From a virus, in the IMG/VR virus record IMGVR_UViG_3300004369_000164, positions 1 to 22,661 of that record: 22,661 nucleotides of DNA, one strand, 5' to 3'. The notes beneath the pieces were generated by a model. It was not told the origin of the DNA and did not search any database. It worked only from the letters and a program-made list of their open reading frames with translations. The stretch's first letter is position 1. The number at the start of each line of letters is the position of its first letter. Below, piece after piece: positions 1,739 through 20,815 of this stretch. Position numbers and translations under genes: made by a program.

Positions 1739-2809
1739 ATGGCACTAATCGTTCCACAAATTGGTGAGGTTGAATCCTTAAGATATCTTGTCGGCGCAAA
1801 TAATCATATCCCCGAATTAAGAGAAGCCGCACCAAGAAATCTTATTCTGAAACTGTATAGTGATAACACTACACCAGCAGACAGCGATGTTCCAAATAAT
1901 GATGGAGCAAATGGTGGCAAGTACTACGAGCCCCTTGGTGCTGGAAATACTAATACATATGGATATACTTCAATTACTGGATATCCAGCTTGCGTAAACA
2001 ACAGACCAGACCAGCAATACATCAATAATTTTGGTATTCTTTTGAATGGTTCTCGCTGGACCCTCAGCAGATCTGGTACTGCAACCACAGAAACAACTGG
2101 TGCAGGTACAACTGCATCATATCCAGAGCAGACATTTACATTCACTGGTAGCACTTCTGCTGGCACTAATGCAGGAAATATCTACGGATACTTCCTGGCA
2201 AGAGCAAACAACATGCCTGTTGAGATTCATGGTGTTAAGAATGCTGCAACAGTAGGAATCGGCACTACAATTAGTAAGGGTAACAATACAAACCCAACTA
2301 TTGGTGTTGTTGGAAATTCTTATTTCACAATCGATCCAAACGTAACAGTTGATGACATCACTGTTGGAATGGGTGTTTCTCACATCACAACTGGTGGAGC
2401 AAGTGTAGGTATTACCACTGCTTCTAAGGTTGTTGGTGTTGACAGACAAACCAAGCAGATCTTCGTTGATAATGCACTGGAAGCAAACATTCAGGTTGCA
2501 ACTGGTTCTACTGTTGAGTTTAACTTCTCCAAGGTAGAGGTTGGTGCAGCACACAGTCATGGACTTGCACAAGGTGACGTAATTTACATCGCACGTGGTT
2601 CATCAAACGCCACTACAACCGCAGATGTATATACAGTTCATACTGTAGTTGATTATAGAACATTCACTACAACTCCTGCGATTGATGGTTATGGTGATGC
2701 TACTCTTCATAGCAGCATCTTCTACTCTGAAAGATTCACAAATGGTCCATACAACATTCAAAACCCTGGTGACCAAATCAAGGTAACCCTGAACGTATCA
2801 CTTGAGTGA
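1739..2809 (+). CDS. Virion structural protein of T4-like cyanophages
   Basis: The 356-residue product begins MALIVPQIGEVESLRYLVG and continues with ILKLYSDNTTPADSD, a pattern I associate with structural proteins of marine T4-like phages. The middle is Thr/Gly/Ser-rich beta-type sequence (GTATTETTGAGTTASYPEQT) and the end (FTNGPYNIQNPGDQIKVTLNVSLE) is a typical last beta strand. The start has a strong GAGGA ribosome site and a late-promoter motif upstream, and a Rho-independent terminator follows 32 bases after the stop. This suggests it is highly expressed and closes the first structural unit. Its exact virion location (tail, baseplate or decoration) cannot be told from sequence alone. Confidence 0.65.
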   Translation: MALIVPQIGEVESLRYLVGANNHIPELREAAPRNLILKLYSDNTTPADSDVPNNDGANGGKYYEPLGAGNTNTYGYTSITGYPACVNNRPDQQYINNFGILLNGSRWTLSRSGTATTETTGAGTTASYPEQTFTFTGSTSAGTNAGNIYGYFLARANNMPVEIHGVKNAATVGIGTTISKGNNTNPTIGVVGNSYFTIDPNVTVDDITVGMGVSHITTGGASVGITTASKVVGVDRQTKQIFVDNALEANIQVATGSTVEFNFSKVEVGAAHSHGLAQGDVIYIARGSSNATTTADVYTVHTVVDYRTFTTTPAIDGYGDATLHSSIFYSERFTNGPYNIQNPGDQIKVTLNVSLE

Positions 2810-2841
2810 TTTTTAACCATATATAAAATGTGTTTACTTGG

Positions 2842-2867
2842 GGGGAGATGCTTTGCACTCCCCTTTT
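2842..2867 (+). terminator. Rho-independent terminator
   Basis: GGGGAG at 2842-2847 pairs with CTCCCC at 2858-2863. Inside, after a bulged A, TGC pairs with GCA around a TTT loop. TTTT follows at 2864-2867. It sits between the stop of the 356-residue structural gene and the next start, in the only sizeable gap of this region. Confidence 0.85.
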
Positions 2868-2889
2868 AACTAGATTTAGGGTCGTCTGA

Positions 2890-3264
2890 ATGGAAAAAGA
2901 AGAGAGAAATCAATCGAATCCTAACGAAGATCAATCTCTTGGTGATTGTGGTAGTATTGCTGTACCTCCCGATATTCTTATTGATCGTGGAACCCTAGAA
3001 CCAGATACAACTCCTAAAACCTGTTTTATTGCTGTTGGTGGAGTACCAGATCCAGAAACTGAAAAATCTGGTATGAAAATTGGTGGAGAATCTATAACTG
3101 TTGTAAAAATATCTCCATTTGTACCACATGAAGATCTCAATACTTGTGAGATCATTTATTGTGGTATTGTTTTAACTTGGATTGGTTTTGGTACGGTATT
3201 TGAATTAGATAATGGATCCGAAAGGATTACATCTCCATATCTATCTTCAGGTACAGTACGATGA
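2890..3264 (+). CDS. Unknown small protein coupled to the giant fibre gene
   Basis: The 124-residue product is not a family I recognise. The first 30 residues are highly charged and polar (MEKEERNQSNPNEDQSLGDC), followed by a beta-rich part (TCFIAVGGVP, MKIGGESITVVKI, CEIIYCGIVLTWIGFGTVF). Five cysteines are present. The hydrophobic stretch near 90-107 is too broken for a confident membrane helix. AGGG at 2878-2881 is a good ribosome site 8 bases before the ATG. The stop overlaps the start of the 1734-residue gene (ATGA at 3261-3264), so the two are probably translated together; it could be an assembly partner, adaptor or chaperone of that fibre, by context only. Confidence 0.6.
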   Translation: MEKEERNQSNPNEDQSLGDCGSIAVPPDILIDRGTLEPDTTPKTCFIAVGGVPDPETEKSGMKIGGESITVVKISPFVPHEDLNTCEIIYCGIVLTWIGFGTVFELDNGSERITSPYLSSGTVR

Positions 3265-6200
3265 GTGACTTGAAGATTTTTATATACCCCAATATACTAT
3301 TAAGAGAAAGTTGGGGAGTAACAACAGACTCCGTTGGAGTCGCAACAACCGATCATGGTCTGGTAACATCAGCGAACACCGACCATGAAGATTTTGGATT
3401 AATAACAGATATTTTCGATAGTGGAACAGAAGGATCTCTAAGGTTTGGTGATACGCTTGCAGAGTCAAGAGCGGCATCATATAACTTAGAATCAAAAGTT
3501 ATTACACAAGAACCAGAAGATTATGGATCAGTTGCGGATTCTGTAACAGCAACTGATAACTACGGTATTCTCTTAGATACACTAGGATTTTTTGGTGATT
3601 ATGGAACATTAGTTGAAATTAATGATCCATTCGGTGCCATTAGACTTTCTGGATTTGCGACCATTGAAACGGTTCAACCTCAGATTCATGTTGGTATCGG
3701 TACAATCACAATTAGTGGTGGTGGTGCAGAGGCAATATTTGAGAAGGCAACATTTGCTGATAATGAGACTTTACTAGGAACTCTCAGTGGTACTGGTGCT
3801 GAGTCATTTATTCCACAAGTTTATACTGGATCTGGATCATTTAGTAAATTTGGATCTAAGGTTGAAAGTCGAGGATATTCATACAATCTTGGTTCTATTC
3901 AAGTCATTGAATCACCAGAAGATTATGGTTCAGTTGCCGATTCTGTTCTATCTTCCGATGATTATGGATCATATCTCAATGAACCATTAAATGCATATTC
4001 TGATTATGGGAATATATTCTCAACAGAAGAGACTTTAAATCCATTTGGTACTATTAGTCTTTCTGGATCTGCTGAGATTGAAACTGTTCAACCTCAGATT
4101 CATAATGGATCTGGTGAAATAACCATCAGTGGTGGTGGTGCAGTAACAGCATTTATTGAGAAAGCAACATTTGCTGATAATGAGACTCTACTGGGAACAT
4201 TCAGTGGCGGTGAGGGGGATTCTTATAAGAAAGTTTATATTGGTTCTGGAAACATTGGCGTATTCAGTGGAGCAGCCGAGTCTATATCCTATGTTTATAG
4301 TATTGATTCCATCGATGTCTTTGGTGGATATGAAGATTATGGTCTGATAACCGACAGCCCATCTTATGAGGACTTGGGTTCAATCACAACACCAGTTGTC
4401 TATGACGACTTAGGTATTGTTCAGAGTCCTCCTGTTTATCCTTATGGAACCGTTGTTATCTCTGGTGCCATTAGTGAGCAGGGATCATTCTCTTATGAGG
4501 CTTCTGGTGAAATCGTTATCTCTGGTGAAGCGTCGGCAGTTGAGAAGAGAACTGCTGCTGATGATGAGACCCTACTAGGAACGTTTAGTGGAACTGGTGC
4601 AGAAGCATTTGTACCACAAACTTATACTGGATCTGGATCATTCAGTGCTTTTGGATCTAAGGCAGAATCCAGAGGTTACTCTTATGGTCTTGGATCGATC
4701 CAAGTCATTGACTCACCAGAGGATTATGGTTCTGTTGCCGATGCAGTATCCTCATCTGAGGATTATGGATCTTACATCGGTGCTGGATTAACTTCTTATG
4801 CCGATTATGGTGACATATTCTCCACACAAGAGACTCTAATTCCATTTGGTAGCATTGTTATCTCTGGTACTGCCGAAGTTGAAACTGTTCAACCTCAGAT
4901 TCATAGTGGATCTGGCGAAATCGTTATCTCTGGTGCCGCCACATTTGAAGCAATCACTAAGGTAGAAGAAGATAAGACTCTGCTAGGAACATTTAGTGGT
5001 GGTAATCAATATTCGGATGTCAATGTTTATGTTGGTTCTGGAAACATTGGCGTATTCAGTGGAGCATCTGAATCTAGAACTTATGATTACAATATTGACT
5101 CCGTACTATTCGGTGGTGCAACACAAGATTATGGATCTGTTGGTGTAGCAGCAACTACATCTCTGGATTATGGAATACTATCTCTATCAACAACAAGTCC
5201 TACACAAGATTATGGATATATTGTTGGTGGTGGATATCCTTATGGAACTATCGTTATTTCTGGTGCCATTAGTGAGCAGGGATCATTCTCTTATGAAACT
5301 TCTGGCGAAATTGTTATTTCTGGTGCTGCCACATTTGAGAAGATAACATTTGCTGATGATGAGACCTTACTGGGAACATTTAGTGGTGGTAATCAATATG
5401 CTGAGGTAAGTTCTTATGTTGGATCTGGTGCTATTGGTATATTCAGTGGAGCAGCGGAATCTATATCCTATGTTTATAGTATTGATTCCATCGATGTCTT
5501 TGGTGGATATGAGGACTATGGTTCAATAGCATCTTCTGTTACTTACGAAGATCTGGGTTCAATCACAACACCAGTTGTCTATGATGACTTAGGTATTGTT
5601 CAGAGTCCTCCTGTTTATCCTTATGGAACCGCTGTTATCTCTGGTGCCAGTGATGAACAAAGATCATTCTCTTATGAGGCTTCTGGTGAAATCGTTATTT
5701 CTGGTGAAGCATCGGCTGTTGAAAGGGTAACTGCTGCTGATGATGAGACCCTACTAGGAACGTTTAGTGGAACTGGTTCTGAATCATTCCAGGAAGGTGT
5801 TTATACTGGATCTGGATCATTCAGTGCCTTCGGATCTAAGGCAGAATCCAGAGGTTATTCATACAACCTTGGATCGATCCAAGTCATCGAATCACCAGAG
5901 GATTATGGTTCTGTTGCCGATAGTGTAACATCATCGGATGACTATGGATCTTATATTGGCGCTGGATTAACTTCTTATGTTGATCATGGTAATCTGTTCT
6001 CTACACAAGAGACATTAACACCATTTGGTACGATCAGAATTTCTGGTACTGCTGAAGTTGAAACTATTCAACCACAAGTCCATTCTGGATCTGGCGAAAT
6101 CGTTATCTCTGGTGCCGCCACATTTGAAGCAATCACTAAGGTAGAAGAAGATAAGACTCTACTAGGTACATTCAGTGGTGGTAATCAATATGCTGAGGTA

Positions 6201-8465
6201 AGTTCTTATGTTGGATCTGGTGCTATTGGTATATTCAGTGGAGCATCTGAATCTAGAACTTATGATTACAACCTAGAATCGATTGATGTCTTTGGTGGTT
6301 ATGAAGATTATGGTCTCATAACTGATAGTCCATCGTATGAGGACTTGGGTTCAATCACAACACCAGTTATCTATGATGACTTAGGTATTGTTCAGAGTCC
6401 TCCTGTTTATCCTTACGGTGAAATTATTATTTCTGGTGGATTTACTAATCCTCAGCTTACATTTGCTCATGAAGCAACTGGTCAGATTACAATCAGTGGT
6501 GAAGCATCGGCTGTTGAAAGGGTAACTGCTGCTGATGATGAGACCCTACTAGGAACGTTTAGTGGAACTGGTGCAGAAGCATTTGTACCACAAACTTATG
6601 TTGGATCTGGTGAATTTAGTGCCTTCGGATCTAAGGCAGAATCCAGAGGTTACTCCTATGGCATTGAATCTATTGCTATCGTTGATTCCCCAGAGGATTA
6701 TGGTTCTGTTGCCGATAGTGTAACATCATCGGATGACTATGGATCTTATATTGGTGCTGGATTAACTTCTTATGATGATTATGGTAGTCTCTTCCTAACA
6801 CCAGAGACTACGCAACCATTTGGAACAATCATCATTTCTGGTGGTATTACTGACGAGCAAGTAATATTTGCCCATGAAGGTTCTGGAACAATTGGTATCT
6901 TTAGTGGTACTGCTGAGGTTGTTGGTTGGAATCCACCAGATCAAACTGTCGATATTACCATTTCTGGTGATGCTCTAACTGCTGTTGAAGCAGAGTACAC
7001 TCCTGATCCAGGAATCGGAACAATTTTCATTGATGGAACATTAGTAGAGCGTAGAACTTATAGTTACAACATAGATTCTGCATCACTTACATTTGAATCT
7101 CAGGATAATGGTCTCATATCTGATTCTCCAGATGTTGCTGAGATAGAAGGTGGAAGCATCGCTTCACTGCCAACAGAAGATGGCATAGATTATGGTGTAC
7201 TTACAATTGATGCAACTACACTACCTTATGGCACCATCAGAATTTCTGGTGGATTTACTAATCCTCAACTTACATTTGCTCATGAAGGTTCTGGAACCAT
7301 TGGCATATTCAGTGGTACTGCTGATTCTGTCGGTTGGAATCCACCAGATCAAACTGTCGATGTCACGATTTCTGGTGATGCTCTAACTGCTGTTGAAGCA
7401 GATTACACCGAAGTTGGTATTGGAACAGTTAATGTTTCTGGATTCGCTACTGATGAGAGGAGATCATTCTCTCATGTTGGTAGCGGTCAAATTGATATTG
7501 GTCTCTTTGCTGATGTTACGTCTAATATCCCATCTCCAACAGGTGGTGTAATAGAACTATTTGGTCGTGCAGGAGAAGTATTTGTACCAACAACCTATGT
7601 CGGTACTGGAACAGTATTTACTAGTGATAATGGATTAGAGTCCAGAACTTATATTTACAATGAGACTTCGATTAATGCATTAATTTCAGAAGATAATGGA
7701 TTCATAATAGATCCTGCAACTTATGAAGATCATGGTGTTCTATCTGACATTGTAATATATGATGATTATGGATATGTCTTCGATGATGGAACTCAATATC
7801 CATTTGATGGTGTTATTGAAATCTCTGGTTCTGCTTCCGTCAGATTTGATACTGAAACACTTTATGAGGGATCTGGTGCCATTGGCATTGGTGGAAGCGC
7901 AAATCCAGTCTTCTACACTCCAAATTATCCTGGTATCGGAACAATTACGATATCTGGATCTGCTCAGGAAGCAAAAACACCAGCAACACATATTGGAGTT
8001 GGAACTGGTCAGTTCTCAGCTATCACTGGATCTGCCGAAGTTGTTGGTTGGAATCCACCAGACAGAACAGTTGATATTACTATTTCTGGTGTTGGTTCGG
8101 AGAGATTTAGCACTCTACAAACTTATAGTGGAGTTGGAACCATCAGTATTGGTGGAACTGCAAGTCCAGTATTCTTTAATCCAGCATACATTGGATCGGG
8201 CACAATTGATGTTAGTGGCATTGCAACTTCCCACTATGTTCCAAACTATCCTGGCATTGGAACGATATTTGCAATTACTGGTGCCGCAGAAGCATATGGT
8301 GCAAAACCACCAATTGTTCCTTCTGACATTATTATTACTGGTATTGGATCCGAAGCATATGCTCCTGCTGGATATACAGGTATTGGAACAATCGTTATTA
8401 GTGGTGCTGGCATTGGAGTTTCCAATCCATACAGAGCTCCATTCGTATTCGTTACCATCATATAA
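3261..8465 (+). CDS. Giant repetitive fibre-like virion protein (1734 aa)
   Basis: This product is almost wholly beta-type sequence, rich in Gly, Ser, Thr, Tyr and acidic residues, with few Lys or Arg and almost no Cys. Residues about 165-1220 consist of eight units of about 130 residues, each anchored by (D/E)D(E/K/N)(E/T)LLGTFSG. Two types alternate: A has FGSKAESRGYSY, then SPEDYGSVADSV and ETVQPQIHSGSGEIVISG; B has IDSIDVFGGYEDYG, then ITTPVVYDDLGIVQSPP and YPYGTVVISG. The C-terminal part has shorter repeats of GIGTI-ISG type, 30-40 residues each. Such GSGxIxISG strands suggest a long stacked-beta fibre. The ATGA overlap with the upstream gene fixes the start. It most likely is a tail fibre or whisker-like appendage; no enzyme motif is seen. 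Its true fold and position on the virion are unknown. Confidence 0.75.
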   Translation: MSDLKIFIYPNILLRESWGVTTDSVGVATTDHGLVTSANTDHEDFGLITDIFDSGTEGSLRFGDTLAESRAASYNLESKVITQEPEDYGSVADSVTATDNYGILLDTLGFFGDYGTLVEINDPFGAIRLSGFATIETVQPQIHVGIGTITISGGGAEAIFEKATFADNETLLGTLSGTGAESFIPQVYTGSGSFSKFGSKVESRGYSYNLGSIQVIESPEDYGSVADSVLSSDDYGSYLNEPLNAYSDYGNIFSTEETLNPFGTISLSGSAEIETVQPQIHNGSGEITISGGGAVTAFIEKATFADNETLLGTFSGGEGDSYKKVYIGSGNIGVFSGAAESISYVYSIDSIDVFGGYEDYGLITDSPSYEDLGSITTPVVYDDLGIVQSPPVYPYGTVVISGAISEQGSFSYEASGEIVISGEASAVEKRTAADDETLLGTFSGTGAEAFVPQTYTGSGSFSAFGSKAESRGYSYGLGSIQVIDSPEDYGSVADAVSSSEDYGSYIGAGLTSYADYGDIFSTQETLIPFGSIVISGTAEVETVQPQIHSGSGEIVISGAATFEAITKVEEDKTLLGTFSGGNQYSDVNVYVGSGNIGVFSGASESRTYDYNIDSVLFGGATQDYGSVGVAATTSLDYGILSLSTTSPTQDYGYIVGGGYPYGTIVISGAISEQGSFSYETSGEIVISGAATFEKITFADDETLLGTFSGGNQYAEVSSYVGSGAIGIFSGAAESISYVYSIDSIDVFGGYEDYGSIASSVTYEDLGSITTPVVYDDLGIVQSPPVYPYGTAVISGASDEQRSFSYEASGEIVISGEASAVERVTAADDETLLGTFSGTGSESFQEGVYTGSGSFSAFGSKAESRGYSYNLGSIQVIESPEDYGSVADSVTSSDDYGSYIGAGLTSYVDHGNLFSTQETLTPFGTIRISGTAEVETIQPQVHSGSGEIVISGAATFEAITKVEEDKTLLGTFSGGNQYAEVSSYVGSGAIGIFSGASESRTYDYNLESIDVFGGYEDYGLITDSPSYEDLGSITTPVIYDDLGIVQSPPVYPYGEIIISGGFTNPQLTFAHEATGQITISGEASAVERVTAADDETLLGTFSGTGAEAFVPQTYVGSGEFSAFGSKAESRGYSYGIESIAIVDSPEDYGSVADSVTSSDDYGSYIGAGLTSYDDYGSLFLTPETTQPFGTIIISGGITDEQVIFAHEGSGTIGIFSGTAEVVGWNPPDQTVDITISGDALTAVEAEYTPDPGIGTIFIDGTLVERRTYSYNIDSASLTFESQDNGLISDSPDVAEIEGGSIASLPTEDGIDYGVLTIDATTLPYGTIRISGGFTNPQLTFAHEGSGTIGIFSGTADSVGWNPPDQTVDVTISGDALTAVEADYTEVGIGTVNVSGFATDERRSFSHVGSGQIDIGLFADVTSNIPSPTGGVIELFGRAGEVFVPTTYVGTGTVFTSDNGLESRTYIYNETSINALISEDNGFIIDPATYEDHGVLSDIVIYDDYGYVFDDGTQYPFDGVIEISGSASVRFDTETLYEGSGAIGIGGSANPVFYTPNYPGIGTITISGSAQEAKTPATHIGVGTGQFSAITGSAEVVGWNPPDRTVDITISGVGSERFSTLQTYSGVGTISIGGTASPVFFNPAYIGSGTIDVSGIATSHYVPNYPGIGTIFAITGAAEAYGAKPPIVPSDIIITGIGSEAYAPAGYTGIGTIVISGAGIGVSNPYRAPFVFVTII
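4550..4625 (+). repeat. 76-base perfect direct repeat (mate at 6524-6599)
   Basis: Bases 4550-4625 and 6524-6599 are identical and encode the unit anchor plus AEAFVPQTY in two A-type units. The flanking bases differ, so the borders are sharp. Confidence 0.9.
4907..4981 (+). repeat. 75-base perfect direct repeat (mate at 6086-6160)
   Basis: Bases 4907-4981 and 6086-6160 are identical and encode GSGEIVISGAATFEAITKV plus the following EEDKT. They join an A unit to a B unit in both copies. Confidence 0.9.
5895..5959 (+). repeat. 65-base perfect direct repeat (mate at 6690-6754)
   Basis: Bases 5895-5959 and 6690-6754 are identical and encode PEDYGSVADSVTSSDDYGSY in two A-type units. The neighbouring codons differ in both bases and residues. 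A further identical block of 53 bases is shared by B units at 4281-4333 and 5460-5512. Confidence 0.9.
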
Positions 8466-8469
8466 TACC

Positions 8470-8476
8470 ATAAATA
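8470..8476 (+). promoter_or_regulatory. Late-promoter-like motif (ATAAATA)
   Basis: CATAAATA lies just after the stop of the giant fibre gene and 23 bases before ATG 8500. It would start the receptor-binding cassette. Confidence 0.5.
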
Positions 8477-8499
8477 TCAAAAAGTAGGCTTGTTTGTAA

Positions 8500-9771
8500 A
8501 TGACAAGGGTTTTAAAATTTAGACGTGGAACCACAGCAGAACATGCGGTTTTTGCTGGGGCTGAGGGGGAAGTAACTGTTAATACTGATAAAGATTGTCT
8601 AGTTGTTCATGATGCATTCACTGTCGGTGGAATTGAGCATGTAAATTTAAATTCAATTCAGAGACTTACTAATAAAGATATTTCTGCAACTCATCTGACT
8701 GTGAGCGGGGTTTCTACATTTAGTAATAATGTTGAAGTTGGAACTGGAATTACATTTTATTCTTCAACTGGTATTATTAGTGCTACAAGTTTTGTTGGGG
8801 ATGGATCTAATCTTACTAATACAGGTTCCACTCTAAGTTCTTCTTCTGGATCACAAAGAATCGTTCTTACAAGTCAAACTAGTGGCACGATGACTGCTTC
8901 TAGTACTAATTCAGATTTAACATACGATACATCAACTAATACATTAATAGTCAGTAACATATCAATTGGTGGAACTCTTACTTATGAAGATGTAACTAAT
9001 GTAGATTCAATTGGCGTTATAACAGCCAGAAGCGGAGTTAGAATTACTGACGGTGGATTAATAGTTGGTGGTGGGACAACAACACTAATAGTCAATGGTG
9101 ATGCTAGAATTACTGGTATCTTAACTGTTGGTACAGGAACTATTTCTATCAATGGTGATACTAATGAAATTGGTATTGGTACAGTTACTCTTACTGAGTC
9201 TAAGATTTCTCAACTGAATGATCTTACTGGTAGTAATAGCGATTTTAGTGGAGATGTAAATATTTCTGGAATTGTTACCGCCACAAATGTATCTGTCGGT
9301 CAGTCTGCAACAGCAACAACTTTTTATGGGAATGGAACTATTCCAATTGGTGGAATTATTATGTGGTCAGGAACTATTGTAAATATTCCAATTGGATGGT
9401 CACTTTGTGATGGTTCTAACGGAACACCAGATTTGAGAAATAGGTTTATTGCTGGTGCTGGAAGTGATACTTTAAGTGTTTGGGGATTTAACGCAACAAC
9501 AGGAGCTACAACATTCACAGGTGGTCAATCTTATGTTGGAGTTAATTCCACTGGCGGTTCTATTGCTCACAAACTAACTGTTGCTGAATTAGCGGCACAT
9601 ACTCACACTGAGCAATATAATGTTAATTCTAGTGGTCAAGACCAGGCAGGTAGTGGATCTGGTGATAATGATAATACTTCTACTCGGAATTCTGGAAGCA
9701 CTGGTGGAAATAATTACCACGAGAACAGACCATCATACTATGCTCTTGCTTTTATCATGAGAACTTCTTAA
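8500..9771 (+). CDS. Short-tail-fibre-like protein: Mtd-like N-terminus, collar C-terminus
   Basis: Residues 1-50 carry the Mtd-type N-terminal pattern (FRRGTTAEHAVF, GAEGEVTVNTD, VVHD), which in other phages anchors receptor-binding proteins to the baseplate. A long Ser/Thr/Gly beta stem follows with strands such as LTVSGVSTFSNNVEVG. The C-terminal part from about residue 278 is a phage tail collar domain: GTIPIGGIIMWSG, IPIGWSLCDGSNGTPDLRNR, then H367-T-H369, HENRP and the ending YYALAFIMRTS. In T4 gp12 an HxH pair binds a metal ion in the trimer core, so H367 and H369 are likely to do the same. It is likely a trimeric receptor-binding fibre. The next gene is a close paralogue. Confidence 0.85.
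   Translation: MTRVLKFRRGTTAEHAVFAGAEGEVTVNTDKDCLVVHDAFTVGGIEHVNLNSIQRLTNKDISATHLTVSGVSTFSNNVEVGTGITFYSSTGIISATSFVGDGSNLTNTGSTLSSSSGSQRIVLTSQTSGTMTASSTNSDLTYDTSTNTLIVSNISIGGTLTYEDVTNVDSIGVITARSGVRITDGGLIVGGGTTTLIVNGDARITGILTVGTGTISINGDTNEIGIGTVTLTESKISQLNDLTGSNSDFSGDVNISGIVTATNVSVGQSATATTFYGNGTIPIGGIIMWSGTIVNIPIGWSLCDGSNGTPDLRNRFIAGAGSDTLSVWGFNATTGATTFTGGQSYVGVNSTGGSIAHKLTVAELAAHTHTEQYNVNSSGQDQAGSGSGDNDNTSTRNSGSTGGNNYHENRPSYYALAFIMRTS
9316..9379 (+). repeat. 64-base perfect repeat shared by two fibre genes (mate at 10350-10413)
   Basis: Bases 9316-9379 and 10350-10413 are identical and encode TTFYGNGTIPIGGIIMWSGT, the start of the collar domain, in the two neighbouring paralogues. The upstream stems are unrelated at DNA level, so the identity begins sharply at the domain border. 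Confidence 0.9.
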
Positions 9772-9777
9772 TAAATA
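9771..9777 (+). promoter_or_regulatory. Late-promoter-like motif overlapping a TAA stop
   Basis: The stop TAA (9769-9771) runs into ATAAATA, 20 bases before ATG 9798. It is the third stop-codon and motif overlap in the window. Confidence 0.5.
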
Positions 9778-9797
9778 CAAAAAAGGTCTATCAATAA

Positions 9798-10790
9798 ATG
9801 AGTACGACTGTAAAATTACGTAGGGGTACAACGGCACAGCATTCTACATTTACGGGTGCTGAGGGAGAAGTAACTGTTAATACTGATAAAGATTCTCTTG
9901 TTGTTCATGACGGATCAACTCCTGGTGGATTTGAACATGTAAATTTAAATTCAAACCAAAGACTTACTAATAAGGATATTATTGCAGTCGGATTAAGTGT
10001 AAGTGGTGTATCTACGTTTTCATCCAGATTAAATGTTACTGGTATCTTAACATGTGGTATTTTAACGTGTAATTCTCTTCGTATTGAAACTAAACTTTAT
10101 GATGGATTTGATACCTTCGGATCTTCTGGACAAATCTTATCTTCTGATGGATCCATAACTAAATGGATTAATGCATCCGATGCAAACGTTGGATCTGCAA
10201 CATCTGTCGGAATCAATTTGGATGCACAAGACGCTCCTAGATACGTTGCTTTTGCGGACACTACAACTGGAAATAGTGTCGTTAGAGTTGATTCTGATTT
10301 AAGTTATAACCCAAGTACAAATGAATTATCTGTTGGTGTTGTAACGGCTACAACTTTTTATGGGAATGGAACTATTCCAATTGGTGGAATTATTATGTGG
10401 TCAGGAACTATTGCCACTATTCCTACTGGTTGGAATTTATGCAATGGATCAAATGGTACACCAAATTTAACATCTAGATTCATTGTTGGTGCTAGTGATG
10501 ATGCTGGTACTGGTGAAACATTTAATGCTGATACTGGTGTAATTAGTGGAGTATATGCTCCTGGTAATACTGGAGGAGAAACTGCCCACCAGTTAACCAT
10601 TGCTGAAATGCCTGCTCACAGTCACAACCATCTTAATGACATTGTTGAAGAAGGTAGTGAATTTACTATCGGAGCTGGTAGTAGAACAGCATCTAGCAAA
10701 ACTGACGCAACAGAGTCTACTGGTGGTAATGATTATCATGAAAATAGACCTAAGTATTACGCTCTTGCTTTTATCATGAGAACTTCTTGA
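9798..10790 (+). CDS. Second short-tail-fibre-like protein (Mtd-like plus collar)
   Basis: The 330-residue paralogue of the preceding gene has the same N-terminus (LRRGTTAQHSTF, GAEGEVTVNTDKDSLVVHDG) and the same C-terminal collar domain (GTIPIGGIIMWSG, IPTGWNLCNGSNGTPNLTSR, H274-S-H276, HENRPKYYALAFIMRTS). The stem between them is shorter by about 90 residues and of different sequence (FDTFGSSGQILSSDG, DAQDAPRYVAF). The loop after the HxH motif, which would be exposed at the fibre tip, also differs. It probably is an alternative or additional receptor-binding fibre rather than a redundant copy. Confidence 0.85.
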   Translation: MSTTVKLRRGTTAQHSTFTGAEGEVTVNTDKDSLVVHDGSTPGGFEHVNLNSNQRLTNKDIIAVGLSVSGVSTFSSRLNVTGILTCGILTCNSLRIETKLYDGFDTFGSSGQILSSDGSITKWINASDANVGSATSVGINLDAQDAPRYVAFADTTTGNSVVRVDSDLSYNPSTNELSVGVVTATTFYGNGTIPIGGIIMWSGTIATIPTGWNLCNGSNGTPNLTSRFIVGASDDAGTGETFNADTGVISGVYAPGNTGGETAHQLTIAEMPAHSHNHLNDIVEEGSEFTIGAGSRTASSKTDATESTGGNDYHENRPKYYALAFIMRTS

Positions 10791-10812
10791 TTGAGCACCG
10801 AGTACAACATGA

Positions 10813-10819
10813 ATAAATA
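10813..10819 (+). promoter_or_regulatory. Late-promoter-like motif (ATAAATA)
   Basis: AATAAATA lies in the 56-base gap before ATG 10847, 27 bases upstream of it. Confidence 0.5.
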
Positions 10820-10846
10820 ACTTAAAGTAAAACTAATGTTAGATAA

Positions 10847-12070
10847 ATGACGAAAGGTGTTCAGCAGAGAAGAGGAAACACTGCACAACATGCTTCATTC
10901 AATGGTCAGCAAGGTGAAATTACTGTAAACACCGATAGGTGGACGGTTGTAGTTCAGGATGGAAGTACCCTTGGTGGATATGAACATGTAAATATTAACT
11001 CAGAGCAGAGAATTACAAATAAAGACATTGTTGCTTCTCAGTTAAGTGTTGCTGGTGTTTCCACTTTTGTTGGCGTAGCAACTGCTCAATCAACTTTATT
11101 TGCCAACGAGTTAAGTGTTTCTGGTATTGCAACTGCTACAACATTCCAAGGTCAGTTTGTCAATTCTGGCGTTGGAACTATTACAAATCTAACATCCGTT
11201 GATTCTTCTTTCACTGATATTAGGTCTAGTGGCATTAGTACCTTAGCGACTTCCGAAGTAACTAATTTAAGAGTTGATAATTTAACTGCAACTGGTCTCT
11301 CCACATTCACTTCAACATCAACCGTTCTGATCGGAACTGGAACTTCAACTGGAACTGCTAATCAAGGACTTCAAGTTGGGAATGGTTCATATCTATCTTC
11401 TGCTGGAATAGGAACTACTGTATCAACAGCATTATTGCATCTTGCTGCTGGAACTGCAAGTGCAAATACATCTCCTCTCAAATTTGATCCTGGTGTAGTT
11501 CTCACAACACCAGAAGCAGGAGCAATTGAATATGATGGTTTAGTTCTTTATGCATCTCCTTCTTCTGCCCGCGCTATTGTTCCTACACAATATTATTATA
11601 GAAATGGAACAAGCATAACTCTGGCTAACAGCACTGCTAACCAAAATTGGTTAGATCTAGCACTCACTATTCCAGCAACTGGTACATATGAATTTGAAGG
11701 TTTATTTGCACTGGGAACAACAGGAACCACTTCACATGTTGAGCGAACTGCTATTACTGGAACAGCAACTTTTACCCGTGTTTATTATCATGTATTGCGT
11801 GCTATTGAAACTACTGGTGCTTATGCCACTGGTTCCCAATATATTGAAAATACTTCTACAACTAATATCACTGGTAACATTACATCAGCACAAAACGTAG
11901 TATATGCAGTGAAAGGTACTTTTGATGTTACTGCTGTTGGAACTTTCATTCCAACCATTGGGTTTAGTGCTGCCCCTGGTGGTACATCTACAATTCGTGC
12001 TGGTGCATACTTAAAAGTTCACGTACTCGGAGCAGCTGGATCAGACGTTTCCGTTGGAAATTGGGCATAA
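10847..12070 (+). CDS. Mtd-like fibre protein with a different C-terminal head domain
   Basis: The 407-residue product shares the N-terminal anchor (QRRGNTAQHASFNGQQGEIT, VVVQDGSTLGGYEHVNINS) and the serial SGVSTF / SGIATATTF stem strands with its neighbours. From about residue 245 it has a distinct domain (YYYRNGTSITLANSTANQNW, then ALTIPATGTYEFEGLFALGT, ending AGAYLKVHVLGAAGSDVSVG). That pattern, a beta sandwich with an aromatic rim and a closing LKVH strand, recalls C1q/TNF-like jelly-roll heads of viral fibres; this is inference from pattern only. No HxH motif or glycine-rich tail is present. It is likely another receptor-binding protein, with specificity in the C-terminal 160 residues. 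Confidence 0.75.
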   Translation: MTKGVQQRRGNTAQHASFNGQQGEITVNTDRWTVVVQDGSTLGGYEHVNINSEQRITNKDIVASQLSVAGVSTFVGVATAQSTLFANELSVSGIATATTFQGQFVNSGVGTITNLTSVDSSFTDIRSSGISTLATSEVTNLRVDNLTATGLSTFTSTSTVLIGTGTSTGTANQGLQVGNGSYLSSAGIGTTVSTALLHLAAGTASANTSPLKFDPGVVLTTPEAGAIEYDGLVLYASPSSARAIVPTQYYYRNGTSITLANSTANQNWLDLALTIPATGTYEFEGLFALGTTGTTSHVERTAITGTATFTRVYYHVLRAIETTGAYATGSQYIENTSTTNITGNITSAQNVVYAVKGTFDVTAVGTFIPTIGFSAAPGGTSTIRAGAYLKVHVLGAAGSDVSVGNWA

Positions 12071-12091
12071 TCTTTTAATACGAATTAAATT

Positions 12092-13513
12092 ATGACAAAA
12101 GAAGTACAGTTTAGAAGAGGTTCATCAGAAGATCATATTGCAGTAGGTGCTGGATTTACTGGTGCCGTTGCAGAAGTTACTGTCGATACTACAAATAATA
12201 CTTTGAGAGTTCATGACGGAACCACAAAAGGTGGTCATGAACTCGTTGGTGTTGCCGCTACTCAACATATTATAAACAAAGACGTAGTTGCCATTGGATT
12301 AACGGTTAGTGGTATTTCAACCTTTGGTGGATCTGTAAGTGCTAATCAAGGGTTGAGTGTGATTGGCGGACTAGATGTAACTTATGGTGCAACACTTGAT
12401 CAATTAAATGTAACTGGTGTTTCTACATTCCAAGATAATGTAAATGTAACAGGAAATCTTGAAGTTGATGCAAATCTTGCAGTTGATGCAAACACACTTT
12501 TTGTTAATGCTGCAAATAATAGAATTGGTATTGGAACTGATAGTCCAGCATACCAAGTAGAAATAGAAAACACTGGTGCAAACGCACTATTGGTGTTAGA
12601 TAGAACAGACGGTGCAGCTTGTTTTATTGAAGGTCAGCTTACTCGTTCAGCATTTGGTTCTGTGGGTGCTACACCTTTGGCACTGGCATACAACAGTTTA
12701 GCAGTAGTTACGATTGGTGCTGGTGGATCTATTAGGGTAAATCCAGACGGAGATGGATTCACATTCCCAACCACAGATGGTAGTGCTAATCAAGTACTAA
12801 AAACGGATGGTGAGGGTAATTTAAGCTTTACAAGCATTACATCATCAATTCAAACTTTGACATCTGGTACTTCTGCAACTTATACACCACCAGCAAACTT
12901 ACTCACTGCTCTTGTCATTGCCACAGGAGCTGGTGCGGGAGGTGGTGGAGCAGATGGTACTGACACTGGATCTGCTTCTGGTGGATCTGGTGGTGCTGCT
13001 GGCGGAACTGCTATCAGAGTTTATAATGCTGCCGAAATGGGTGCATCTGCAACTTATACTATTGGTGCAGGAACTGCTGGTGGGTCCAACACTGGTGGAG
13101 ATTCTACCACTGGTGGTTCTACATCTTTTACACCCGCAGGAACTGGAACTGCATTAACTGCTAATGGTGGTGCTGCTGGTCAAGGTACACCAACATCAGG
13201 AAACGCTGTACACCCAGCAACAGTTGGTGGAACGGCAAGTGGTGGAAACATTAATATTACAGGTGGAGATGGAGATGGTGCCGCAACTGCTGACGTTGCT
13301 GAGATCGCCCAGGGCGGTACTGGTGGTGGGTCATTCTGGGGATCAGGTGGTGGCGGAGGTGTTGCTGCTGGCTCTGGATCAGATCCAGGAGATGCTGGAC
13401 ATGCATACGGAAGTGGTGGAGGCGGTGCTGCGACTCATGATACTACAACAGGTAATGTCGGTGGTGCTGGGGCTGGCGGTGTAATTTTTGTTCTAGAATT
13501 TACAGCAGGATAA
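12092..13513 (+). CDS. Mtd-like adhesin with a polyglycine-rich C-terminus
   Basis: Residues 1-52 give a diverged Mtd-type anchor (FRRGSSEDHIAVGAGFTGAV, AEVTVDTTNNTLRVHDGTT). The stem carries LTVSGISTFGG and ANNRIGIGTDSPAYQVEIEN, a pattern seen in fibres that carry intramolecular chaperone or spike domains. From about residue 273 the protein is a glycine-rich domain with many GG/GGG runs (GAGAGGGGADG, WGSGGGGGVAAGSGS), ending in the hydrophobic strand GGVIFVLEFTAG. Polyglycine sandwich domains of this type bind host receptors in T-even gp38-like adhesins. A chaperone-type gene starts four bases after its stop. No late-promoter motif precedes it, so it is probably transcribed with the previous gene. 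Confidence 0.78.
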   Translation: MTKEVQFRRGSSEDHIAVGAGFTGAVAEVTVDTTNNTLRVHDGTTKGGHELVGVAATQHIINKDVVAIGLTVSGISTFGGSVSANQGLSVIGGLDVTYGATLDQLNVTGVSTFQDNVNVTGNLEVDANLAVDANTLFVNAANNRIGIGTDSPAYQVEIENTGANALLVLDRTDGAACFIEGQLTRSAFGSVGATPLALAYNSLAVVTIGAGGSIRVNPDGDGFTFPTTDGSANQVLKTDGEGNLSFTSITSSIQTLTSGTSATYTPPANLLTALVIATGAGAGGGGADGTDTGSASGGSGGAAGGTAIRVYNAAEMGASATYTIGAGTAGGSNTGGDSTTGGSTSFTPAGTGTALTANGGAAGQGTPTSGNAVHPATVGGTASGGNINITGGDGDGAATADVAEIAQGGTGGGSFWGSGGGGGVAAGSGSDPGDAGHAYGSGGGGAATHDTTTGNVGGAGAGGVIFVLEFTAG

Positions 13514-13517
13514 AAAA

Positions 13518-13895
13518 ATGAAAATTTGCATACTAGACTCAAATACAAAAATAGTTAAGAATGTTTCACTTACCGATTCTCTTGAAGGTATTAATCTCCC
13601 AGAAGGTGAAGAATTAGCACCTAGACATGATGGAGCAATTGGGTGGAAGTGGAGTGGGACTGATTGGGAAATACCACAGGTAGAAGTTTCTTTTGATGAA
13701 AGGTGTCTTAGAGTAAGAAGAAACAGAGATGGGAGACTTAAAGTACACGTTGACAAATACACTGCTATTAGATGGTCATTATTGAGTGCAGATCAACAGC
13801 AAAAAGTGCTCGACTATCGTCAAGCACTTTTAGATGTACCACAACAAGAAGGATTTCCAGATAATGTAACTTGGCCAGAAGTTCCTAATCTATGA
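13518..13895 (+). CDS. Phage tail assembly chaperone-type protein
   Basis: The 125-residue product has its diagnostic end at about residues 60-123: FDERCLRVRRNRDG, W86, then YRQALLDVPQQEGFPDNVTW and PEVP. This Rxx(R/N)RD...W...LS..Q...YRQAL.D.P...GFP..V.WP.P pattern is that of the phage tail assembly chaperone family encoded directly after tail-fibre genes. The N-terminal 55 residues (MKICILDSNTKIVKNVSLTD, GWKWSGTDWEIP) form a separate small domain. By family and position it probably helps fold or trimerise the polyglycine adhesin just upstream. Its stop codon abuts, back to back, the stop of the minus-strand gene that follows. Confidence 0.75.
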   Translation: MKICILDSNTKIVKNVSLTDSLEGINLPEGEELAPRHDGAIGWKWSGTDWEIPQVEVSFDERCLRVRRNRDGRLKVHVDKYTAIRWSLLSADQQQKVLDYRQALLDVPQQEGFPDNVTWPEVPNL

Positions 13896-14531
13896 GTTTG
13901 GATCGGGTATAAGGGGGCATTTATAATTGTATCCTATTTTTCCAATGTGAGAGACTTCTTTGGATAAATCATGATCCACATATACTTTTGCATGTGATTT
14001 AATATCCATACAAAATTGATAGTCTTCTCCACGATATTCTTCTTCTTTTTCCAGATAAGTATATTTAAACCAAGGTTTTTCTAATTTGTCAAACAAACTG
14101 GTTGCCGTTAGGCATAATCCAAATCCAATACCATCGACACTCTCTAATCCATATGATCTTCTTGTTGTTGGTATTGGTTCAAATCCATTTAAGTACTCAT
14201 TGAAATTTGCAGCAGTAAATCTATGTGGACTTCTTCTTGTTGAATAATTCACACCAACAAAATCTAATTCATGATTTAAAAGTTGGTAAAACGAATGTGA
14301 TGGAAAAGACATATCACTATCAACCCAAATAATATGAGTTGCATTTATTTTTTGGGCATATTTAACTACTTGTATTCTGCCATTATGAATATAAGTTTCT
14401 AACATTGGTACATATGCAATAGAGCAATTGTACTTGTTGGAAACGAGATATAAAATATTTTCAACAATACTTTGTGAATATCCAGTGTGAACCATATCTC
14501 CACAAGGACCAGAAATTAAAATGCTCTTCAT
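13890..14531 (-). CDS. Glycosyltransferase-like protein with DxD motif (minus strand)
   Basis: The 213-residue product starts MKSILISGPCGDMV. I chose ATG 14531 over the longer open frame because the extra 33 residues are AT-biased, look non-coding and cover the promoter. Residues 64-77 (ATHIIWVDSDMSFP) contain D71-S-D73, the metal-and-nucleotide-sugar motif of GT-A glycosyltransferases. FVGVNYSTRR, VDGIGFGLCLT and GEDYQFCMDI follow in the order expected for a sugar-nucleotide and acceptor site. It is clearly related to the plus-strand gene at 20036-20815. It is the only minus-strand gene, set among fibre genes and with its own promoter-like sequence. It may modify a virion or host glycan; the substrate is unknown. 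Confidence 0.82.
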   Translation of the reverse strand: MKSILISGPCGDMVHTGYSQSIVENILYLVSNKYNCSIAYVPMLETYIHNGRIQVVKYAQKINATHIIWVDSDMSFPSHSFYQLLNHELDFVGVNYSTRRSPHRFTAANFNEYLNGFEPIPTTRRSYGLESVDGIGFGLCLTATSLFDKLEKPWFKYTYLEKEEEYRGEDYQFCMDIKSHAKVYVDHDLSKEVSHIGKIGYNYKCPLIPDPNS

Positions 14532-14556
14532 TATTATGGATACACTCTTTCTTTTA

Positions 14557-14585
14557 ATTATAACATAGTTAAATACATAAATAAA
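14557..14585 (-). promoter_or_regulatory. Sigma-70-like extended -10 promoter for the minus-strand gene
   Basis: On the minus strand TGTTATAAT is seen: a consensus TATAAT at 14557-14562 with an upstream TGn (14563-14565), the extended -10 pattern. A poor -35 (TTTATT, 14580-14585) lies 17 bases away. The -10 box is 25 bases before ATG 14531, a typical spacing. It overlaps the late motif of the divergent plus-strand gene. Confidence 0.6.
14577..14583 (+). promoter_or_regulatory. Late-promoter-like motif (ATAAATA)
   Basis: CATAAATA lies 29 bases before ATG 14613, overlapping the -35 region of the divergent minus-strand promoter. Confidence 0.5.
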
Positions 14586-14612
14586 TTTAGACTTAAAAAG
14601 GCACAATCTATC

Positions 14613-14801
14613 ATGGCTAAGCAAGTACAATTAAGAAGAGGTACTACTGCGGAGCACGCTTTATTCACTGGTGCTGAGGGAGAAGTTACATACGATACTC
14701 AAGCGAAAGTTTTAGTCGTTCATGATGGGTCTACCCAAGGGGGAATTCCTACTGCTCAATTGAGTACAGTAACTGCATTATCAATAGCATTAGGCATTTG
14801 A
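14613..14801 (+). CDS. Stand-alone Mtd-like N-terminal domain protein (62 aa)
   Basis: The whole product is the anchor domain shared by the four fibre genes at 8500-13513: MAKQVQLRRGTTAEHALF, then GAEGEVTYDTQ and VVHDGSTQGG, followed by a short tail of 15 residues (TAQLSTVTALSIALGI) with no stem or head. The frame is intact and has a late-promoter motif before and after it, so it looks like a real gene rather than a decayed fibre. It could cap or occupy the same docking site on the baseplate, or be a remnant left after loss of a C-terminal domain. The short length lowers confidence in function, not in existence. Confidence 0.75.
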   Translation: MAKQVQLRRGTTAEHALFTGAEGEVTYDTQAKVLVVHDGSTQGGIPTAQLSTVTALSIALGI

Positions 14802-14844: not shown

Positions 14845-17800
14845 ATGGCAAAAAGATTGCTGCACAAATATACGTTTTCCGCTGGAACAGATACTGTTGC
14901 TATTGATGGTAACTGGTCTAGGGAAAAACTGCTTCTTATTACCAACGTAACTGATAATATTATCATTTACAATTTTGCTGATCCAAATCTTAGAGCAACT
15001 TCTTACAGTTATAATAGTACGACTGATAAAACAACTGTTGTTCTAAATTATGATTGTAATGCAATGGTCGATACCGACATATTGCAGATTTTTGTTGAGG
15101 AGGAAGCGGTTGCATTTAAACCAAGTCAGACCTTCATTGACCCTGTTTCAAAGATCAGAGTTTCTCAGGGTGAAACCCTGATTGATACCGACTTTGAATA
15201 TGGTCTCCAGTATACAAAATGGGAAACATTAGAACTTGTTAATAATATCCCAGGATTCTACTCAAAAACTGGTGATACTCCACTTGCAGTTACCGCAATT
15301 AACGTTGTAGATGGAAGCCGTACTATTACTGTTACAGCACCTTCTCACGGTCAAACAGTTGGAACACCAGTTGACGTAAGAGGTTTATCGCAAACGGCAC
15401 TGGAAGGTAGTTATATTGTTACTTCTGTTCCTGACGGTGATAACTTTATTATTAGTGGAAGAGCTGTTGCTAGTAGTTCTGGAAACGTAAAGACACCATA
15501 TTCAACAATTATTCCTGGTAGATTTTACGCTAGTTCCCAGATTAATTATTCGGAAATTGTTGGTATCGGAACATCAATTACAGTTACAACTCATAATCCA
15601 TCAGGATTCAAAGATGGATCCGAGTTTTATCTAGTCAATACACTTGGAACAACGAGTTTAGATATTGATTCTACTGCCGTTGATATTGACGAAATCGAGG
15701 AGCAAGCAGAATCCTTCGATCCTATTGGCGCTTACACTGCTGGTGATGGAAACTCGAATACCATGAGCGTAGACCCATGGGATTATATAAGCTCACTTAA
15801 CTCAAAATTTGTTAGATGTGGTGCTGGTGGAAATATACCATCCAATAATATTATTACTATACCTAACCATGGTTTCTCAAATGGTCAGGTAGTTGCTGCT
15901 GTTTCTCCTACTGGAACTACGTTACCTTCGGGTATCACTAATGGTGGAAGATATTACATCCGTCAAGTAAGTGGGAACAATTTTAGACTTGCAACTTCTA
16001 ACAGTGATGCAAACGTAATTTCATTTACTGCAAATACTGGACAAGGTACATTTGGACTTCTTCGTGGATATGCAATTACATCCATCAACTCAACAAACGC
16101 TGGTGGAAACCAGGATAGAGTTACACTGCACCAAAACCTGATAACCACAGGAACTACAACTAGTACACCATTTATTGTTATTGGAACTACACCAACATAC
16201 TTCGGAACTTCGACAGGTAACGTAGCTCTGTATACCAACAAAGCAGTTACTTATGCACAAACAACTAACTTAGGAACTTCTCCTTTCCATGATTATTACC
16301 TGATATACGTTGCTAACACATCTAGAATTCAACTTAAAACTTCAGCGGGAACCACGACCAGATTACCATTTAGTGGTAACTACAACGCAACAAACAATGG
16401 AGCTCCAACTCTCATTCCTGTTACATTAAACCCCAATCGCAACACTATCAATATTCAAGATGCTGTTAAAGATTATAAGTTTAGAGAAAATGATCCAATT
16501 CACACTGGAACAGCTCTAACTTATCGTTATAGTGTTGGTTCTGGCACAGTTGCAATTCCAGGTTTGACGGATAATGCAATTTACTACTTAGAAAAAGTTA
16601 GTGATAACTCATTCGGTCTTAAATCAACTCCTTCGGGTTCAAGAATAGCAATTCATGGATATCCAACAGAAACTGGAACTGCACACACAATCTTTACTCG
16701 TTACGAAAGACTAACGCAAAATACAATTATCATTCCTGGACATGGATTGTCAGTTGGACAACTAGTTGTTTATTCTGGTGTTGGCACGGGAACTACAATT
16801 GGTGGATTAACTGAGGATCAGTCTTACTATATTGGTGCTGCTAGATCTGATACGAATAATAGAATTACTTTGCAAGCAGTTTCTGGTGGAAGTACGATTG
16901 ATCTTACTTCTGCTGGTATTGGAACACATACATTACTTCTAGATTCTGTTGGTACTCTTGACGGATCTTATGCACTATTAGAAGTAGTTGATAATACCAA
17001 ATTTACAGTTTCTAATATTTCATCAGTTTCAGCAACTGTAAGATCCTTTGATCCCGAAGTTGTTGGTATTGTCAGTGCAACAGACGATACTATTTCTATC
17101 CCTGTCCATAGATTTATTACGGGTACTGCGGTTACTTATACCTCTACGTATCCTGACTCTACGGATATTGGTGGACTCACGAGTAATGAGAGATATTATG
17201 TTATTAGAGTTGGTAAAGATAAGATCAGACTTGCATCATCATCAGAAAATGCTACCAACAACACCTACATTGATCTTACAGAATCTATTGAACATTTCGT
17301 TGGTGTTGGACAAACACACACTTTCACCTCCAATAGTATTGTTGGTGAAAGTGTTGGAGTCGGATCTGTCAGTTTGACTACTGGATCCGCAAAAGTTACT
17401 GGTGTTGACACCAAGTTCTTGGCATCATTTAAGAGTGGTGACCCATTTGTAGTTGATTTACCAAATACAAATAATGGTATTGGATCTGTATTTACTGCTG
17501 AGGTTGCTTCTGTTGGTGGTGATCAGCAGATGTTCCTAACGGGGACTGCATCAACAACCATTACAGGTGCTGATTATCTGATTAAAACTGGATTCTATGT
17601 CAAGTCTGAGGGATTTGCACTTCATAGACCATTTGATGGTGGTGTTGAAATTAACGCGAAGAACATTGCTGATGCACAAATCATCAGACAAACGAGAAGA
17701 TATTTCAGATATCAGTCTGGTAAAGGTCTGAATGTCCAGTTTGCAATCAACTTTAACCCACCGATTGATGCAATGTCAATCGTTTCAACTGGAACTACTG

Positions 17801-20035: not shown

Positions 20036-20815
20036 ATGAGTAGAAATAGAGGTAAAAAAGTTCTAGTCGCATCAATTTGTGCAGAACAAGTGTATAGTCA
20101 ATATGCAAATTGTGTTGGAAAAGCGATGTTGTATTTTGCATCGTGTAAAAATCCATGTCCAATGACCTATGAAATTATACATGCAACTTATTTGCATGAT
20201 GGTCGAAATGATGTAGTAACTTTGGCGCGAAAAATAGGTGCAACTCATATCATTTGGATTGATGCTGATATGATGTTCCCTCCCGATTCTTTTGAAAGAC
20301 TATTGAATCATAATTTGGATTATGTTGGCGTTAATTATTCGAATCGTAAACCACCACATTTCCATACGGCAATGTATAGAATTCTTAGGAATCAAAATGA
20401 AGAAGGTAAACCTCTAAAAGATATTCTTGGATACACACCAGTTTATACGACAGATTCTAGTACTGGTTTGCAGAAAGTTGATGCCATAGGATTTGGACTA
20501 TGTGTTACATCTATGAAACTATTTGATACAATTGAGAGACCATGGTTTGAATATTACTACGTTCCAGAAAAAGAACAACATGCAGGAGAAGATATATATT
20601 TCTCTAAGAAATTAGAACCATATTTTGATTGCTTTATTGATCACGATCTGAGCAAAGAAATTCAACATATCTCTGTTGGGTATATCGATTATAATGCACC
20701 CAATAGAAAGATGGTAAAGGAAGTTACTGGTGCAGATCAGATTTTGAAAGCATCAAAGAGTCCCGTAGAAATTCTTAGAGAATCTATGTCCGATGATACT
20801 AATGGAGAAGAGTAA
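20036..20815 (+). CDS. Glycosyltransferase-like protein with DxD motif (plus strand)
   Basis: The 259-residue product carries ATHIIWIDADMMFPPDSFER at residues 69-88, with D76-A-D78 as the GT-A type DxD motif, then YVGVNYSNRKPPHFHTA, VDAIGFGLCVTSMKLFD and AGEDIYFSKKL. The order and spacing match the minus-strand gene at 13890-14531, so the two are paralogues; this one is 46 residues longer, with an insert near 120-140 and a longer acidic tail. It should transfer a sugar from a nucleotide donor in the cytoplasm; acceptor and sugar are unknown. It is the first gene after the terminator and has its own host-type promoter. Only one base separates its stop from the glutaredoxin start. Confidence 0.82.
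   Translation: MSRNRGKKVLVASICAEQVYSQYANCVGKAMLYFASCKNPCPMTYEIIHATYLHDGRNDVVTLARKIGATHIIWIDADMMFPPDSFERLLNHNLDYVGVNYSNRKPPHFHTAMYRILRNQNEEGKPLKDILGYTPVYTTDSSTGLQKVDAIGFGLCVTSMKLFDTIERPWFEYYYVPEKEQHAGEDIYFSKKLEPYFDCFIDHDLSKEIQHISVGYIDYNAPNRKMVKEVTGADQILKASKSPVEILRESMSDDTNGEE

Follow-up and report, generated by a model that had tools for sequence, protein, structure and literature searches.

The main marine picocyanobacteria are hosts of Kyanoviridae, which share a conserved giant gene that is annotated as hypothetical or misnamed. This gene follows a gene of the phrog_10467 family in S-SCSM2R, S-CAM1, S-CAM3, S-SSM7, S-SSM6a and Sf-FS3, and in S-SSM7 and Sf-FS3 it lies downstream of the gp7, gp8 and DUF4815 baseplate genes, with tail proteins next. 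The model of the protein family phrog_11522, whose function is unknown, is the 2130-aa product SXBG_00232 of S-CAM1.

The window analysed here, a stretch of 22,661 nt from IMG/VR virus record IMGVR_UViG_3300004369_000164, carries a giant gene (3261–8465) whose product matches phrog_11522 (E 2.3e-60, in 15 stretches), as do relatives from L010, L096 and S-SSM7. The window and S-CAM1 have in common the gene order, the elementary repeats and a C-terminal xxII end; by contrast, identity is only ~25%, and the S-CAM1 protein has a looser composite repeat of ~246 aa, lacks arrays of two module types (A and B) and holds its N-terminal part within one ORF. A Pfam search of the giant protein up to E 0.1 gave no match, phrog_11522 was alone below E 0.01, and sequence and profile searches of the PDB gave no useful match, so that the statement in the preliminary description that no characterised protein has this layout holds within these searches. 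We propose that the products of the genes at 2890–3264 and 3261–8465 probably make up a long fibre, associated with the tail, in the virion of a Kyanoviridae-type cyanophage, and that this fibre grows by block duplication.

The tail cluster and the split N-terminal ORF

All genes and repeat units described between 656 and 8465 lie on the plus strand. The conserved block opens at 656–994 with a 112-aa protein of the LtfC-like / L-shaped tail fibre assembly family (phrog_3304, E 1e-31); an ORF of 110–112 aa occupies the same position in S-SCSM2R, where it is named ‘L-shaped tail fiber protein’, and in S-SSM7 and Sf-FS3. Next come a 235-aa virion structural protein (991–1698; phrog_10330, E 3e-86), 46–56% identical to its orthologues in S-SCSM2R, S-SSM7, S-CAM1 and S-CAM3, and, directly upstream of the fibre genes, a 356-aa protein (1739–2809; phrog_10467, E 6e-108) that is called ‘tail fiber rope protein’ in S-SCSM2R, shares 50–55% identity with cyanophage orthologues and has 200 relatives in IMG/VR. 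Downstream of the giant gene, the window carries Mtd_N/collar tail proteins. This gene order comes after the gp7, gp8 and DUF4815-type genes in S-SSM7 and Sf-FS3 and is found again in S-SCSM2R, S-CAM1 and S-CAM3.

This neighbourhood bears on the rather unlikely alternative that the product is a tail or head decoration or whisker protein instead of an adsorption fibre, its modules forming a spacer or surface coat. Such a protein would also be at home in a virion cluster, no receptor-binding domain was recognised by Pfam in the window copy, typical collar/Mtd_N fibres are encoded further downstream in the same cluster, and the next gene downstream in S-CAM1 carries the deposited label ‘hoc’. However, the genes next to it encode LtfC-like, ‘tail fiber rope’ and baseplate proteins, and the lectin- and propeller-type insertions found in relatives (see below) fit binding.

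Several other genes of the window deserve mention. Four consecutive tail proteins (8500–13513) have like starts (M..V.xRRG, Mtd_N type) and differing C-terminal ends (collar, glycine-rich, other), and are followed by a tail-fibre-assembly protein (13518–13895). A second giant gene (14845–19953) encodes a virion structural protein of 1702 aa (phrog_5838, E 2e-166) that also matches a baseplate wedge family. Part of the tail cluster is flanked by two phrog_1574 proteins of unknown function (13890–14630, minus strand; 20036–20815, plus strand), 45% identical to each other; the latter gives a weak glycosyltransferase-like match below the Pfam cut-off, and a role of the pair in tail glycosylation is possible. 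Just upstream of the fibre cluster, a stand-alone HNH endonuclease (252–623; phrog_2214) is possibly a homing endonuclease able to promote exchange of the cluster.

Between the phrog_10467 gene and the giant gene lies a 124-aa ORF (2890–3264) with the motif TWIGFGTVFELDNGSER, which represents the N-terminal portion of the putative fibre, split off as a gene of its own. This small ORF also stands alone in L007–L012, L087–L089, L091 and L094–L096, and the small-ORF motif WxGxGTxxE is found within the giant ORF, at aa 85–124, in S-CAM1, S-SSM7, Sf-FS3, L092 and L093. The N-terminal part is thus fused to the giant ORF in some phages and is a separate, coupled ORF in others. In the window, alignment places an ATGA stop/start overlap between the two genes (3261–3264), with the junction GTACGATG identical across nine aligned loci; L091, L094, L095 and L096 likewise have a small ORF with a 4-base overlap. 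A programmed frameshift at 3261 was considered and set aside: GTACGATGA shows no evident slippery heptamer and split relatives keep a separate small ORF, hence translational coupling is preferred. The conserved N-terminal part encoded by the small ORF would probably dock the fibre near the baseplate.

A further alternative is that the protein acts outside the virion, secreted or at the cell surface during infection. Neighbouring genes bear deposited names such as ‘large exoprotein’ and ‘polymorphic membrane protein’, and repetitive sequence of this style is common in adhesins. We nevertheless regard this reading as highly improbable: judged by eye, the N-terminus is without apparent signal peptide or transmembrane stretch, the neighbours belong to virion structural families and the position near baseplate genes is conserved.

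Repeat hierarchy of the giant protein

The giant modular protein (1734 aa) is Gly/Ser/Thr-rich, with 14% Gly, 12% Ser, 3% Lys+Arg and no Cys. Nearly all of it is made of two elementary repeats, one of ~21 aa with the pattern GxGxIxISGxA(E) (GSG..SG) and one of 12–14 aa with the pattern EDYGxI (DYG). Eight repeats of the ~21-aa kind form LLGT(F/L)SG anchors, which start at aa 171, 310, 438, 574, 703, 831, 967 and 1096 (nt 3771, 4188, 4572, 4980, 5367, 5751, 6159 and 6546) and are therefore spaced by 139, 128, 136, 129, 128, 136 and 129 aa. Anchor positions and identities between units define A1 (3771–4187), B1 (4188–4571), A2 (4572–4979), B3 (5367–5750), A3 (5751–6158), B4 (6159–6545) and A4 (6546–6953); unit and sliding identities single out a variant, B' (4980–5366), whose first third is B4-like and which departs from B chiefly in its middle.

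The preliminary description had proposed precisely this order, four A units interspersed with B units and one B variant in the fourth place and giving way to shorter GIGTI-ISG repeats, and anchors, identities and shuffles confirm the series A, B, A, B', B, A, B, A. Amino-acid identity amounts to 59–85% among A units and 55–83% among B units but only 40–48% between A and B, in support of the two-type modular architecture, and self-identity of the protein reaches 25.5% at its best shift, 393 aa, whereas 50 shuffles gave no more than 11.8%. Same-type units differ by 15–37% in nucleotide sequence and hence are not an assembly duplicate. The suggested unit length of about 130 residues agrees with the observed spacing of 128–139 aa, but the anchors do not mark the natural boundaries and the eight units cover 3771–6953 only, not the entire ORF. 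The natural module, common to relatives, extends between successive PFG/PYG marks, which are 127–138 aa apart in the window and 91–93 aa apart in L009 and L010.

After the eighth unit, a C-terminal zone (6954–8408) contains partly degenerate modules and then ~21-aa GxGxI-SG repeats. It is followed by a conserved C-terminal end, GIGVSNPYRAPFVFVTII (8409–8462), recognised by aligning 13 proteins; the extreme end [FY]xxII is common to this set, one of the 13 ending in IV. This end would probably cap or dock one end of the fibre. A 242-aa ORF in another frame (7759–8487) was rejected as a Leu-rich shadow ORF cast by the repeat sequence, of a sort that also occurs in L009 and L010.

Self-comparison of the gene gave the off-diagonal matches predicted for the units, at 384–417 nt (weaker) and 792–801 nt, and the strongest of all at 1179 nt. 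At the latter shift, nucleotide identity is 0.43, whereas none of 100 codon shuffles exceeded 0.32. Sliding identity locates the signal in ~930 nt that recur with an identity of 0.65–1.00 and drop to background on both flanks (families D1, D2 and D5): the first copy of this B-A-B triad block spans 4161–5090 and the second, 1179 nt downstream, 5340–6269. The stretch B1-A2-(first third of B') is thus repeated as B3-A3-(first third of B4). In keeping with this pairing, dS is 0.39 for A2/A3 and 0.41 for B1/B3, below every other same-type pair computed. The order in the window, best described by the formula A-[B-A-B']-[B-A-B]-A, would most simply have arisen by triad duplication with later replacement of part of B' or B4. 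Between module copies of the window, dN/dS ranges from 0.23 to 0.59, indicating purifying selection.

Module arrays and length among relatives

IMG/VR relatives were fetched via the neighbour gene, the small ORF and single-type module alignments, a mixed module alignment being too diverse; a whole-protein scan of viral contigs gave no relatives. Like the window, L009, L010/L011, L090, L098, L007 and L012 have two-type alternating modules and, wherever that part is present, a split N-terminal ORF, and L010, L090 and L098 share with it the end NPY[RK]APxVxVTII. Unlike the window, their modules measure 91–93 aa and lack LLGTFSG repeats, and the sequences of their two types, X and Y, have 33–35% mean identity to window modules. 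X and Y are each common to L007, L009, L010 and L012; the window A type is nearest X while B is unplaced, in a comparison of 74 columns with long branches.

Module types in L009, L010, L090 and L091 were assigned by the motif that opens each DYG stretch. L009 bears 16 type marks in strict YX alternation, L010 bears 11 and L090 six; the chance of strict alternation is about 2e-4 for L009 (15 modules) and 2e-3 for L010. Taken alone, the A/B order of the window is weakly non-random (at most one like-neighbour pair in 8 of 70 arrangements), and the alternation is convincing because relatives carry strict arrays. In L091 (2585–8072), modules run through three types in a fixed cycle, unlike the two types elsewhere.

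PFG/PYG modules number nine in the window, 15 countable in L009, which ends inside its array, and 11 in L010. Module number thus differs between lineages, as proposed beforehand, yet the idea of growth by unit pairs proves too narrow: the repeating block is an X-Y pair in L009/L010, a B-A-B triad in the window and a three-type cycle in L091, so that change occurs by pairs or longer blocks depending on the phage. Recent length change was not seen among isolates, all six of S-CAM1 having 2130 aa and all three of S-CAM3 2558 aa; neither is an A/B array, and these constant lengths imply that such change is infrequent in those phages. Over the 5466 nt that they share, L010 and L011 are identical and hence provide no test of length change, and L009 and L090, from the same metagenome, have no exact end overlap of at least 15 nt and were not treated as one gene. 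Arrays of this kind may explain assembly breaks in such genes, as in L009.

Mean module likeness within a phage is 0.50–0.53 (window, L009, L010) but 0.33–0.35 when window modules are compared with those of other phages, the pattern that homogenisation and repeated copying of blocks should leave. Mechanistically, homologous recombination between similar modules would copy whole two- or three-module blocks, keeping the cyclic order of types, altering shaft length between lineages and homogenising modules within a phage; length would presumably matter to the fibre. Whether the cycle itself matters is a separate question. That two or three types make up a real structural period (e.g., one turn or bend), with length changing mainly in whole cycles, seems doubtful to us. 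Somewhat more credible, though still tentative, is that, whatever the protein does, alternation is a neutral by-product of unequal recombination among repeats, the existence of two types having no functional role; this reading is compatible with the block-duplicated fibre and competes only with the view that the cycle is important. A cyclic order can be created and preserved by block duplication alone, there are two types in L009/L010 but three in L091, and the order seen in the window is irregular. Against neutrality, X and Y are still distinct across four relatives, the window modules are under purifying selection, and had the two types been interchangeable, gene conversion should have merged them.

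Relatives also carry inserted domains, namely an FG-GAP propeller in S-SCSM2R, an SGL-type propeller in L089 and laminin-G in L094. Propeller- or lectin-type binding domains would thereby be added to some fibres, perhaps for receptor contact.

The proposed fibre and known systems

A fibre role is most likely in view of gene neighbourhood, composition and architecture, and would place the product in the virion. The giant chain would form a long shaft of beta-rich repeats, presumably a stacked-beta oligomer and perhaps a trimer, in which GSG..SG and DYG repeats build modules of ~92–135 aa belonging to two or three types. AlphaFold2 monomer models of modules 2–6 (19 alignment rows) and of the C-terminal 550 aa (eight rows, window and IMG/VR) reached pLDDT values of 32.6 and 33.5, respectively, and gave no usable fold; a pLDDT of ~33 fits an obligate oligomer and equally a shallow alignment. 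Strands appear at GTIxISG segments only in these models, whose confidence is too low, and a repeat period of 20–21/41–42 aa recurs in several relatives. No homologue of the giant protein was found in virion data. The S-CREM2 virion proteome was considered as direct support and discarded, as it has no homologue at this place, gp130 at the corresponding position being non-homologous (PMC10665884).

In a distant, unrelated phage, L110, a gene at 2008–7323 combines an RCC1-type propeller with about fifty ~20-aa GSG..SG repeats and matches phrog_11522, which suggests that the elementary repeat is a wider fibre building block.

The locus provides a higher-order repeat within a cyanophage family that, although uncharacterised, is itself not new. 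The clean array makes the evolution of fibre length testable by comparison and experiment, and the split or fused N-terminal gene and the conserved C-terminal end offer two fixed points for structural work. The closest named proteins, S-SSM7_110, Sf-FS3_93, S-SCSM2R_111 and C421010_094 of S-CAM3, resemble the window product in being encoded after the phrog_10467 gene and in their GSG..SG repeats and conserved C-terminal end, but have no regular module array, and S-SCSM2R_111 further differs by its FG-GAP propeller. Pfam and PHROG profiles gave no sequence match between the giant protein and a known tail-fibre family (T4-type long tail fibre). The T4 long tail fibre (gp34–gp37) is nonetheless comparable as a long, repetitive fibre whose gene is altered by domain duplication, and its adhesin domains have reportedly been duplicated. 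Beyond the absence of a detectable sequence relation, the two systems differ in what is copied: a small adhesin domain in T4, whole modules of a putative shaft in the window.
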